A stretch of 64,000 nucleotides of DNA. Source: Methanocaldococcus sp. FS406-22 (GTDB lineage: Archaea; AGJL01; Methanococci; Methanococcales; Methanocaldococcaceae). Location: contig NC_013887.1 in assembly GCF_000025525.1 (NCBI RefSeq), positions 692,729 to 756,728 on the forward strand, in the 5' to 3' direction. This document shows, one piece after another, positions 43,340-56,691 of the stretch. The notes beneath the pieces are model-generated. The model did not search any database. It saw only the letters and a list, made by a program, of their open reading frames with translations, and was not told the DNA's origin. The position numbers and the translations under genes were made by a program. Every line of letters begins with the position of its first letter. Positions within the stretch are counted from its first letter, which is position 1.

Positions 43340-43655
43340 CTACTTTATAGTATAAGGTAAATAGTTCCCAAATTCAATCTTCCTAACTAATTCCCAGCTC
43401 TTTTCATCTAAAATGTGCATTTCTGAGAATGAGAAGGTGTATAGATAATCATTTATAAATAAAGCTCTCAAGACACCTGTTTTATGTTCGTCATCTTTAA
43501 CCATCTCTATCTCTTTATTTTTAACTTTAAAGATATAAGCATGGTTATTTACTGGTAGAAAGAATATCTTATACTTCTCATCCCATAAAAATGCATGATA
43601 ATCTCTTAAAGCTGGACTCCACCATTCTTTGAGTTTATATTTATCAATCTCTCTA
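43340..43655 (-). pseudogene. Out-of-frame C-terminal part of the beta-propeller lipoprotein
   Basis: After the upstream frame stops at 43606, the neighbouring frame continues with a sensible protein: LKEWWSPALRDYHAFLWD, then FFLPVNNHAYIF and VLRALFINDYLYTFSF, ending ELVRKIEFGNYLPYTIK and a TAG at 43340-43342. The segment ALRDYHAFLWD is the usual late motif of PF09826-type beta-propeller proteins. Restoring one base near 43650 (TTAGAGAGA to TTAGAAGAGA on the coding strand) joins both frames. About 100 residues are lost from the main product. Confidence 0.75.
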
Positions 43656-45210
43656 AGTTGGAAATGTCAAACAATGAGATTTTTAACCTTCCATCATCAT
43701 CCTTTCCAATGCCTATGAATAAATTATTGCCTATTGGATGTAAATATGTGGAATATCCAGGAATCTTTAGCTCCCCCAAAATCTTTGGATTCTTTGGGTC
43801 TTTTAAATCAATAACTAACAATGGATCTGTTTCTTTATATGTTACCACATAAGCTTTATCTCCCATAAACCTAACTGCATAAATTCTCTCTCCCTTCTCT
43901 AATCCAGTTAGTTTTCCAACTACATTTAAATCTTTATCTAATATGTAGATGTTGTTTGTCATCCTATCTCTGAATCTCCAATCCCCTATTGTTGTTGCTA
44001 CTCTTAAATAGCCGTTATATTCATCCATGGCAAAGTTGTTTAAAAGATGCCCACTTACCTTTCCACTCTTCACTTCAAAGTTATCTAAGTCAATTTTAGC
44101 TATTCCAGTGTATTCATATTCTTCCCAGTGCTTTTCCAAATATTTTTCAAAATCGTTCTGCATTTTTTTCATTAGGTTGTGTCTCTTTTCAGATGGAAGG
44201 GAGTTTAAATATTTCCCAATTGTTTCAGTTATTTCGATAAACTTGGCATTATCTCTAAAGTCTTTATTTTCAATAACCCTTTTTATCTTGTTGGCAATTT
44301 CTGTTGGGAAATATTTATCAGCATTTTCATGTAAAAATTCAAGCATTAATTTTTGTTCATTAACTTTTAGATTATAGGCAAAGTATAAGTTGTTTTTTGA
44401 CATGTATAAGGTTGTTCTATAGCTTCCAGCAATAGCTATTGAATTCTCAACTTCTCCAGTTTTTATATTTATTTTGCTGATTATATAAGTTATATCGAAA
44501 TCTCTCATGTAGATTGGTGGCAATTCTGGAATATAGTATTTATCATAACCGATTTTATAGCCGTTCCATACAATTGGGCAATCAATAGAGTCTTTTCTAA
44601 CCACCAAGTATAGCTTATTGTTATACAACCTTGAATCAACATAACTCTCATTTAAATTTATTTGCCAAATGATTTTTGGAGATTTTGGATTTGAGATGTC
44701 GTAGGAAGTTATTTTATCTCTACCGATAACAATCAGTGTGTTGTTTATTAAATAGAGGTATCCACTTTGGGAGATGTTGTTTATAATCTCCGCCTCTTCT
44801 GGTGGAAGAGGCTTAATTAAATAAACCTTTCCTTGGAAGAAATTTTGAGAGAAAGCTATAATATTACCATTCGTTTTTAGTATATCTGCCTCATCAACTC
44901 CTTTAACTTGGACATTTGTCTCTGAGTATCTTTCTGGTTCAGTTGAAATTTTTTCTGTATCAAGAGCTATCTCAACTGCCGCTTTCTCTGTTCCTTCAAC
45001 TGCATATCTATAAGCCCCAACATAGTAATGTCCATAACTCTCTTCAACATTTTTCTTAAAATCCTCAAATTTTTCTTTAGATTCAACTGGAATTAATTTA
45101 AAATCTCCTTTTTTAAATAAACTTCCGTTTTCTTCTGGCTTTTCAAAGCATCCACAAATTAGAGAAGAAATTAATACCATAGATAGTCCAAAAGCTATTA
45201 GCTTCTTCAT
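43606..45210 (-). CDS. Secreted beta-propeller lipoprotein (PF09826-like), C-terminally frameshifted
   Basis: 534 residues as read. Signal peptide with lipobox LICGC at about 17-21, so it is lipid-anchored outside the membrane. The motif YSETNVQVKGVDEADILKTN is the hallmark start of the beta-propeller domain; propeller blades follow (YLINNTLIVIGRDKITSYDI, VLLVIDLKDPKNPKILGELK). The frame ends prematurely after NSKNGGVQL; the true C-terminus is in another frame down to 43340. It is either a recent mutation, a sequence error, or a frame change used in the cell. GGTGAAACT site and ATG start. Confidence 0.8.
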   Translation of the reverse strand: MKKLIAFGLSMVLISSLICGCFEKPEENGSLFKKGDFKLIPVESKEKFEDFKKNVEESYGHYYVGAYRYAVEGTEKAAVEIALDTEKISTEPERYSETNVQVKGVDEADILKTNGNIIAFSQNFFQGKVYLIKPLPPEEAEIINNISQSGYLYLINNTLIVIGRDKITSYDISNPKSPKIIWQINLNESYVDSRLYNNKLYLVVRKDSIDCPIVWNGYKIGYDKYYIPELPPIYMRDFDITYIISKINIKTGEVENSIAIAGSYRTTLYMSKNNLYFAYNLKVNEQKLMLEFLHENADKYFPTEIANKIKRVIENKDFRDNAKFIEITETIGKYLNSLPSEKRHNLMKKMQNDFEKYLEKHWEEYEYTGIAKIDLDNFEVKSGKVSGHLLNNFAMDEYNGYLRVATTIGDWRFRDRMTNNIYILDKDLNVVGKLTGLEKGERIYAVRFMGDKAYVVTYKETDPLLVIDLKDPKNPKILGELKIPGYSTYLHPIGNNLFIGIGKDDDGRLKISLFDISNLERLININSKNGGVQL

Positions 45211-45290
45211 AGTTTCACCAAAAACTCAATTATCTAAGTTTATTTATATGTCTAAAAAAGATACTATAAAAGAGTTTTCAAATTGTTCGG

Positions 45291-45767
45291 TTATCTCCGA
45301 ATGATTTTATAAGCTAAATAAATTATAAAAATCAATAAAAAAGCAGATATGATTAAAAAAATTAAAAATAATGGCTCTTGATGGGGAGTTGTTGATACCT
45401 TAGATACAGTATAAACCCTCTCCTCAACAGTTGTTTTTGATACAACATATATTTCTCTTGCTTGCAATTTTATTTGCTTAAATGCATAATAAACCCACAT
45501 TCCAATTAGAGCAAAGATACTGCCAACTATTAAAATCAACGCCTCTAAGTTCTCTAAAACCTTTTTACCTTTGTTAGTTATCTTGTAATAAACCCATTTG
45601 CTGTGACTCTCCTTATCAACCAATCCCATTTTATATAAAGCATTTAAATGCTCACTTATTGTTGATTTTGACTTACCTAAAATCTTTGATAGTTCAGAGA
45701 CCGTGTAATTCCTCTCATTTAGCTTTTTTAAAATTTCAATCTTTGTTTTTGAAAATAGCAGTTTCAT
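45291..45767 (-). CDS. ArsR-type winged-helix regulator with two membrane helices
   Basis: 158 residues. N-terminal HTH ([38 protein letters not shown], with the wing [11 protein letters not shown]). Two hydrophobic helices follow at about 77-95 and 130-152, joined by an extracytoplasmic loop. A DNA-binding domain tethered to the membrane suggests signalling from outside. Located 80 bases upstream of the beta-propeller lipoprotein on the same strand, which may be its target or sensor partner. Confidence 0.85.
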
Positions 45768-45796
45768 ATTCCCACAAAAATAAAAATAAAGTTAAA

Positions 45797-46192
45797 TTAG
45801 CTCTCAACTGGTCTAAACTTATATCCATAGGTTATAACTCCATCATCACCATCCTCTTTTATCTTCCTAAATACTGCCTCAACCGGCATGCCTATATAAA
45901 CATCTTCTGGCTTGCAATCTACTATCTGCCCAGTTATTCTTGCACCCTCCTCCAACTCAATGATTGCTATTACATAGGGAGCTTGCTTCTCAAAGTCCTT
46001 TGGTGGGACATGAACTACTGAATATGTATAAATCTTCCCTTTACCACTCAACTTTATCTCTTCAAACTCTGTCTTTCTTCTACACTTTGGACATATCTCC
46101 CTTGAAGGGAAATAAACTGTCCCGCAGTTTTTACATCTAACTCCAATTAGGTTGTATCTCTCTTTTATGTGTCTCCAACTTCTTACAACCAT
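45797..46192 (-). CDS. DUF35 OB-fold protein, thiolase/HMG-CoA synthase accessory
   Basis: 131 residues. Zinc ribbon CKNCGTVYFP ... CPKCRRK (about 20-41), then an OB-fold (GKGKIYTYSVVHVPP ... GARITGQIVDCKPEDVYIGM). In methanogens a DUF35 protein holds acetoacetyl-CoA thiolase and HMG-CoA synthase in one complex that channels the unstable intermediate. Both enzymes are encoded just upstream in the same direction, which supports that role here. Confidence 0.9.
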   Translation of the reverse strand: MVVRSWRHIKERYNLIGVRCKNCGTVYFPSREICPKCRRKTEFEEIKLSGKGKIYTYSVVHVPPKDFEKQAPYVIAIIELEEGARITGQIVDCKPEDVYIGMPVEAVFRKIKEDGDDGVITYGYKFRPVES

Positions 46193-46221
46193 ATTTATCC
46201 CTCAATAAGATTTTATCCCAT

Positions 46222-46250
46222 GAAACTTTTAGTAAAAGTTAATAAAAACT
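46222..46250. repeat. Short member of the hairpin-rich dispersed repeat family
   Basis: AACTTTTAGTAAAAGTT (46224-46240), a near palindrome, followed by AATAAAAACTC, matches the left end of the element at 62611 and an internal part of the one at 55656-55886. It lies between the DUF35 gene and the CooT-like gene and includes part of the DUF35 upstream region. Confidence 0.5.
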
Positions 46251-46269
46251 CTCTCATCCAGTAATTAGC

Positions 46270-46443
46270 TTATCCCTCAATGAATATCTTATTCTCATTC
46301 AAATCAATCTTTTTAATCTCTCCTACAAACTCTTTCCTCTCTCCAAATAAATCAACTGCTATAACTTTATCTCCCTTTTTTTCAACAACCATAACATCTT
46401 CCATAACCAACTCTCCATTAAAGTAAAGGTTGCAACTACACAT
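46270..46443 (-). CDS. CooT-type nickel-binding small protein
   Basis: 57 residues from the ATG at 46443, chosen because the family begins Met-Cys; frames from 46452 add three residues. The start MCSCNLYFNGELVMEDVMVV and the later VIAVDLFGERKEF with GEIKKIDLNENKIFI match CooT, whose Cys2 binds Ni(II) at the dimer interface. Its function in methanogens is not settled; nickel handling for Ni enzymes is plausible. It follows the Cys4 gene by five bases. Confidence 0.75.
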   Translation of the reverse strand: MCSCNLYFNGELVMEDVMVVEKKGDKVIAVDLFGERKEFVGEIKKIDLNENKIFIEG

Positions 46444-46448
46444 AATCA

Positions 46449-46634
46449 TCAACTCGCATCCTCTTCTTCTTCAACATCAACCTCTAATGCTCCATCCTCA
46501 TAGCCATAGAGTTCATAGATTTTTGATGATATGTAGAGGTCAATGAGCATAATTAACCTGCACTCTCCTCCAACCCACATTACACATCGGTCTTTTTTGC
46601 AGATGTCTTTTATAAATGGGCAGAACTTATCCAT
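46449..46634 (-). CDS. Small four-cysteine protein
   Basis: 61 residues. The N-terminus [20 protein letters not shown] with CRL following has four cysteines in C-x6-C-x4-C-x7-C spacing that could bind an iron-sulfur cluster or zinc, then a helix and a very acidic end ([11 protein letters not shown]). Its ATG overlaps the end of the upstream broken membrane gene and it precedes the CooT-like gene, so it is part of this operon. No named family known to me. Confidence 0.65.
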
Positions 46635-46860
46635 TTAGCTCATCCTTCTTATTTTTATTAAATGGCAGATAAGGGATATTTAACTTGGTCTTATCGTATA
46701 TTATAAACCCTATTGCAAACAGACATGCAAATATTATTGTTGAAACTCATAAGAATATTGTCAGCCCATCAAATAGATAGTACCAAATAATAAAGTCCAA
46801 TATTACGAATAAAATACTTCCAACTATCAAAGTAAGTGCTTCTTTTTTAAAATTTTCCAT
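46627..46860 (-). pseudogene. Small two-helix membrane protein interrupted by in-frame TGA
   Basis: ATG at 46860 opens MENFKKEALTLIVGSILFVI, then IWYYLFDGLTIFL, followed by TGA at 46747-46749. The frame continues with VSTIIFACLFAIGFIIYD and [19 protein letters not shown] to TAA at 46627-46629. Coding character on both sides, and the final overlap with the next gene's ATG, show it was or is one gene of 77 codons. A nonsense mutation is the simplest view; selenocysteine is possible in this lineage but would be odd inside a membrane helix. Confidence 0.7.
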
Positions 46861-46873
46861 AATCTCATCCTAA

Positions 46874-49113
<2,240 letters not shown>

Positions 49114-55890: not shown

Positions 55891-56691
<801 letters not shown>

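Follow-up and report, generated by a model that had tools for sequence, protein, structure and literature searches.

A TGA inside a small membrane protein gene of Methanocaldococcus sp. FS406-22 is very probably a nonsense mutation or base error and not a selenocysteine codon

On the minus strand of the window (the whole 64-kb stretch of DNA that was analysed), the gene of a small two-helix membrane protein is interrupted at codon 38 by an in-frame TGA. Very probably this codon arose by a recent nonsense mutation from TGG to TGA, or it is a base error, and we treat the two as one joint reading; in this sequence, a single-base error would look the same as a mutation. Selenocysteine (Sec) at codon 38 was rejected on the codons of relatives and on SECIS searches.

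The gene and its neighbourhood

Translation of the minus strand from 46860 to 46627 gave a frame of 77 codons that is closed by TAA and broken by a single in-frame TGA, and the plus strand of 46627-46860 held no open frame. The frame starts 13 nt past the stop of the thiolase gene, its 3' end overlaps the next ORF (46634-46449) by 8 nt, and its predicted product stops after 37 residues. Kyte-Doolittle means over 19 residues reached 2.48 and 2.62 in two hydrophobic stretches, with the TGA lying within the second. As in a selenoprotein gene, the frame stays open past the TGA; downstream of it, no in-frame ATG, GTG or TTG was found in this genome. The protein gave nothing above Pfam or NCBIfam cut-offs, and no function is claimed for it. 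The preliminary description had reported a 77-codon frame with two hydrophobic segments and a single TGA at 46747-46749 inside a membrane helix, with coding resumed past the TGA and overlapping the start of the next gene; these coordinates and this description held throughout, and the strand, which it had left unstated, is minus. The features considered here are:

46627..46860, minus strand: small two-helix membrane protein gene (frame, homologues, place behind the thiolase gene)
46747..46749, minus strand: in-frame TGA, codon 38 of the small membrane gene (translation, homologue codons)
46874..48052, minus strand: acetyl-CoA acetyltransferase (thiolase), directly upstream (NF053570, 716 bits, cut-off 600)
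48076..49113, minus strand: archaeal HMG-CoA synthase (TIGR00748, 703.5 bits, cut-off 353.35)
46449..46634, minus strand: Cys-containing small ORF of 61 aa, downstream (no Pfam/NCBIfam match; seen in congeners)
46270..46452, minus strand: CooT-like small protein (PF10133, 66.5 bits, cut-off 27)
45797..46192, minus strand: zinc-ribbon/OB-fold protein (PF01796, PF12172)
55891..56649, minus strand: PSTK, L-seryl-tRNA(Sec) kinase (TIGR03574, 363 bits, cut-off 290.5)

The cluster thus reads HMG-CoA synthase, thiolase, small membrane gene, 61-aa Cys-containing ORF, CooT-like gene and zinc-ribbon/OB-fold gene. We take its HMG-CoA synthase and thiolase to be genes of the mevalonate pathway, and hence call the cluster mevalonate-type. 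The 61-aa ORF, about 240-430 nt past the thiolase stop, is frame-shifted in G011 (L065) and altered in G003 (L064). Elsewhere in the window, a beta-propeller gene (PF09826; 43340-45210, minus strand) is frame-shifted near its end, where an ORF of 534 aa (43606-45210) gives way to roughly 100 residues in a different frame. Of 13 genomes searched for this gene, nine others of the genus gave a match, and their open frame runs to 561-637 aa.

Homologues and codon 38 in relatives

The read-through protein was used as query against 61 genomes, including its own (G000). Matches with E-values of 1.2e-46 to 1.6e-6 were obtained in 11 of them, own included: nine of one genus and two of one other genus. 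These are the genomes at E <= 1.6e-6 out of 38 with a match at E <= 10; the remainder had best E-values of at least 4e-4 and were left outside the count. In the contig scan, one relative had the same protein and contig size (52,382) as G003:C33, and the two were counted once. The best same-genus match, in G012, had 81% identity over residues 1-72 (E 1.5e-33). A thiolase match was obtained in 34 genomes, and in 30 of these the neighbourhood was read. The small gene lies closely behind the thiolase gene in ten carriers, own included; G004 had no thiolase match, but a thiolase-like tail just upstream of the small gene. G002 gave no thiolase match either. Judged by the 81% identity to a same-genus genome and the same place behind the thiolase gene, the small frame is a real gene, beyond chance. 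The same-genus ORFs behind the thiolase gene in G012, G007, G011 and G003 are 64-81% identical to the present one and the G012 ORF has the same two hydrophobic segments, whereas their codon 38 is TGG (G012, G011, G003) or TTG (G007) and here it is TGA.

Across the 11 carriers, codon 38 is TGG in seven (G003, G004, G008, G009, G011, G012, G013), TTG in G007, TAT in G024, TAG in G016 and TGA in this genome, with Cys or TGA in none of the ten others. The most similar copy, that of G012, has TGG followed by the same six codons as here (GTT TCA ACA ATA ATA TTT). On these codons, the pattern is that of a Trp codon changed G-to-A, not of a Sec position. The preliminary description had called for this comparison, and had named a sense codon other than Cys or TGA in relatives as what would refute Sec; with Trp in seven, Leu in one, Tyr in one and TAG in one of the ten other carriers, the selenoprotein idea fails on its own terms. 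According to excerpts of PMC2933860, Cys homologues exist for all prokaryotic selenoproteins but one; the small membrane gene, in contrast, has no Cys homologue among its ten other carriers.

In four congeners (G005, G006, G001, G010) the thiolase gene is followed by no ORF of this kind, and the protein search gave no strong match. G005 and G006 have, by eye, a short stretch resembling the last codons of the gene immediately ahead of the next ORF; it could be the scar of a deletion or simply the leader of that ORF. In G010 a different gene lies behind the thiolase in a rearranged cluster. The G007 copy changes frame near codon 66, with 68 residues left. Among 18 neighbourhoods of other genera, inspected by eye for ORFs of at least 30 aa within 700 bases, 16 had no such ORF, and two (G016 and G024) had it. 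The small membrane gene looks dispensable, as it is missing from its place behind the thiolase in the four congeners, and two further genomes (G007, G016) have a damaged copy.

Past the stop, amino-acid changes affect 3 of 28 codons relative to G007 (10 of 37 before it) and 5 of 28 relative to G012 (7 of 37 before it), so that in these two comparisons, over few codons, there was no signal of relaxed constraint. With no decay past it, the stop would have to be of recent origin, be an error, or undergo read-through.

The TAG copy of the other genus (L012, G016:C3:36352-36495) has an ATG five codons past the TAG, and its relative G024 has TAT at codon 38. In the G012 copy, 33 single-base changes over 24 codons give a stop; two of them are transitions, and both (TGG to TAG and TGG to TGA) fall on codon 38. 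Given transition bias, the same spot being hit twice is thus expected, and this one-transition site may explain why a second lineage is broken there, as an argument and not a proof. In the present copy, codon 26 is also TGG and a second one-transition site, and codon 38 was therefore not the sole possible target here. Pyrrolysine was considered for the TAG of G016 and rejected: no PylS N-terminal domain was found in G000, G016 or G024, and the Methanosarcina acetivorans control matched.

Selenocysteine decoding and SECIS searches

The organism decodes Sec. PSTK, already named in the preliminary description as encoded in the window, scored well above its cut-off (TIGR03574, 363 bits against 290.5), and tRNA-Sec (G000:C1:982631-982718, 72.5 bits, gathering score 47) and SelD were also found; PSTK speaks for Sec decoding in the organism and is not linked to the small membrane gene. 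Read through their TGA, frames of FrhA (687.9 bits), SelD (646.6 bits) and two formylmethanofuran dehydrogenase B proteins (608.9 and 507.1 bits) scored above NCBIfam cut-offs, and an FdhA frame, scored on the part given, reached 643.9 bits and so fell just short of its cut-off of 666.25. Two TGA codons occur in a VhuD-like FlpD gene, and a VhuU-like frame was named from the residues flanking its TGA. Methanogen selenoproteins, listed in a table of PMC2933860 as FdhA, FwuB, FruA, VhuD, VhuU, HdrA, selenophosphate synthetase and a HesB-like protein, share with the small membrane gene an in-frame TGA in a Sec-decoding organism; they differ from it in having a SECIS with a GAA/A motif, which was not found for the small gene.

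For the SECIS search, a covariance model (R1) was built from 15 elements of the genus, of which this genome supplied six; they were drawn from part of the listed GAACCC...GGGA matches in 14 genomes; 14 were kept by a stem rule, and one FruA-type element that failed the rule was added by hand. Over the whole genome, where 150 of 176 first-look candidates were scored, R1 gave seven hits next to selenoprotein genes, at 29.5-47.9 bits: the six training elements from this genome and one upstream of the FdhA gene. The latter lay outside the training set, which contained a similar element from G001; PMC11881835 likewise places the fdhA1 SECIS in the 5'-UTR. We do not claim these seven to be all there are, since genes of the HdrA and HesB-like type lay outside the search. 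Three of the hits lie within 5.2 kb (G000:C1:820518-825729), adjoining the TGA-containing VhuD-like, VhuU-like and formylmethanofuran dehydrogenase B genes, and a second formylmethanofuran dehydrogenase B gene with TGA and SECIS is at 1712137-1713391.

None of these seven hits lies within the window, and R1 run on the window alone with default filters gave no hit at E <= 10. With filters off, the best of ten matches in 45200-48200 scored 6.6 bits (E 1.6), and the one lying within the small gene itself (46655-46686) reached 4.3 bits (E 9.4). Since archaeal SECIS elements usually lie 80-1,300 nt from the UGA, as stated in an excerpt of PMC2933860, the searched region covers the usual distance. 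Among the exact GAACCC-N3..7-GGGA matches listed, 17 are in this genome and none in the window. A strict motif scan of 46201-46950 scored at best 2.0, against 15.1-18.8 for the three real SECIS elements it detected; those in L050 and L053 escaped it.

PMC11881835 reports natural AAA/A and CAA/A variants. As R1 was trained on GAACCC...GGGA elements and odd variants would score lower, two looser checks were added. A relaxed NAA/A scan (any first base) of 45200-46900 scored at most 6.4; of the seven real elements it detected six, at 7.1-14.2, which leaves a thin margin to the weakest, and missed one (942004). Motif-free folding of 42-nt minus-strand stretches within 46200-46880 gave -11.0 kcal/mol at best, compared with -18.0 to -22.9 kcal/mol for the seven real elements in the same check. 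The strongest hairpin of 45200-48200 (minus strand, 46081-46122, -17.0 kcal/mol) was rejected, as it lies inside the zinc-ribbon/OB gene and is without GAA opposite A. A SECIS element, a stem-loop with a GAA/A motif that mostly sits in the 3' UTR, was accordingly not found around the small membrane gene by R1, the motif scans or the folding check, in agreement with the preliminary remark that no SECIS-like stem is evident.

Weighing the explanations

In the favoured account, the ancestral codon 38 would have been TGG, as in the most similar copy (G012), and a single G-to-A transition would have turned this Trp codon into TGA in this genome, so that translation would probably end within the second membrane helix, at 37 residues, of a presumably dispensable protein of the mevalonate-type cluster (HMG-CoA synthase, thiolase, zinc-ribbon/OB protein). 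The preliminary description had likewise thought a nonsense mutation likelier than Sec, which the relatives' codons, never Cys or TGA, and the lack of a SECIS near the gene support. Against the joint reading speaks that the half past the stop is still open and conserved, and the presence of stops at codon 38 in two lineages might mean that a stop there is tolerated or has a function. Within the joint reading, a sequencing or assembly error, which the preliminary description had also allowed for, with the strain's gene intact and a sense codon in place, takes the smaller share and is unlikely in itself. The conserved frame past the TGA would fit it, and a second broken gene about 3 kb away, the frame-shifted beta-propeller gene, raises its weight a little; on the other side, G000 is a two-contig, 99.87% complete assembly, and a true mutation is credible given that relatives lack this gene or have it damaged.

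Read-through, or a functional one-helix product of 37 residues, we regard as quite improbable. The TAG at the same codon in G016, the ATG that follows it and the conserved downstream half here favour such a product, but codon 38 is the sole one-transition site in the G012 copy, so that the coincidence needs no function; moreover, the present gene offers no start codon past its TGA, and G000, G016 and G024 gave no match to the PylS N-terminal domain. It would be more improbable still that a stop at this codon, as TGA in this genome and as TAG in the second genus, has been retained to make both a one-helix form and, by SECIS-free recoding, a read-through two-helix form. A new small membrane selenoprotein, with the TGA read as Sec, is barely conceivable. 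The organism does have PSTK, tRNA-Sec and TGA-containing FrhA, SelD, FdhA and two formylmethanofuran dehydrogenase B frames with SECIS, and the small frame is open and conserved past its TGA; set against this are the codons of the ten other carriers, the site within a hydrophobic segment and the SECIS searches. We also count against Sec that, in an excerpt of PMC11881835, reporter activity was like that of the control without SECIS once the A residues in the GAA motif had been exchanged.

Significance

The nonsense-mutation or base-error reading removes a false selenoprotein candidate from annotation and matters little beyond that. Nonsense mutations in genes of this kind are ordinary events; the gene itself is a small one beside mevalonate-pathway genes, absent or damaged in several related lineages.
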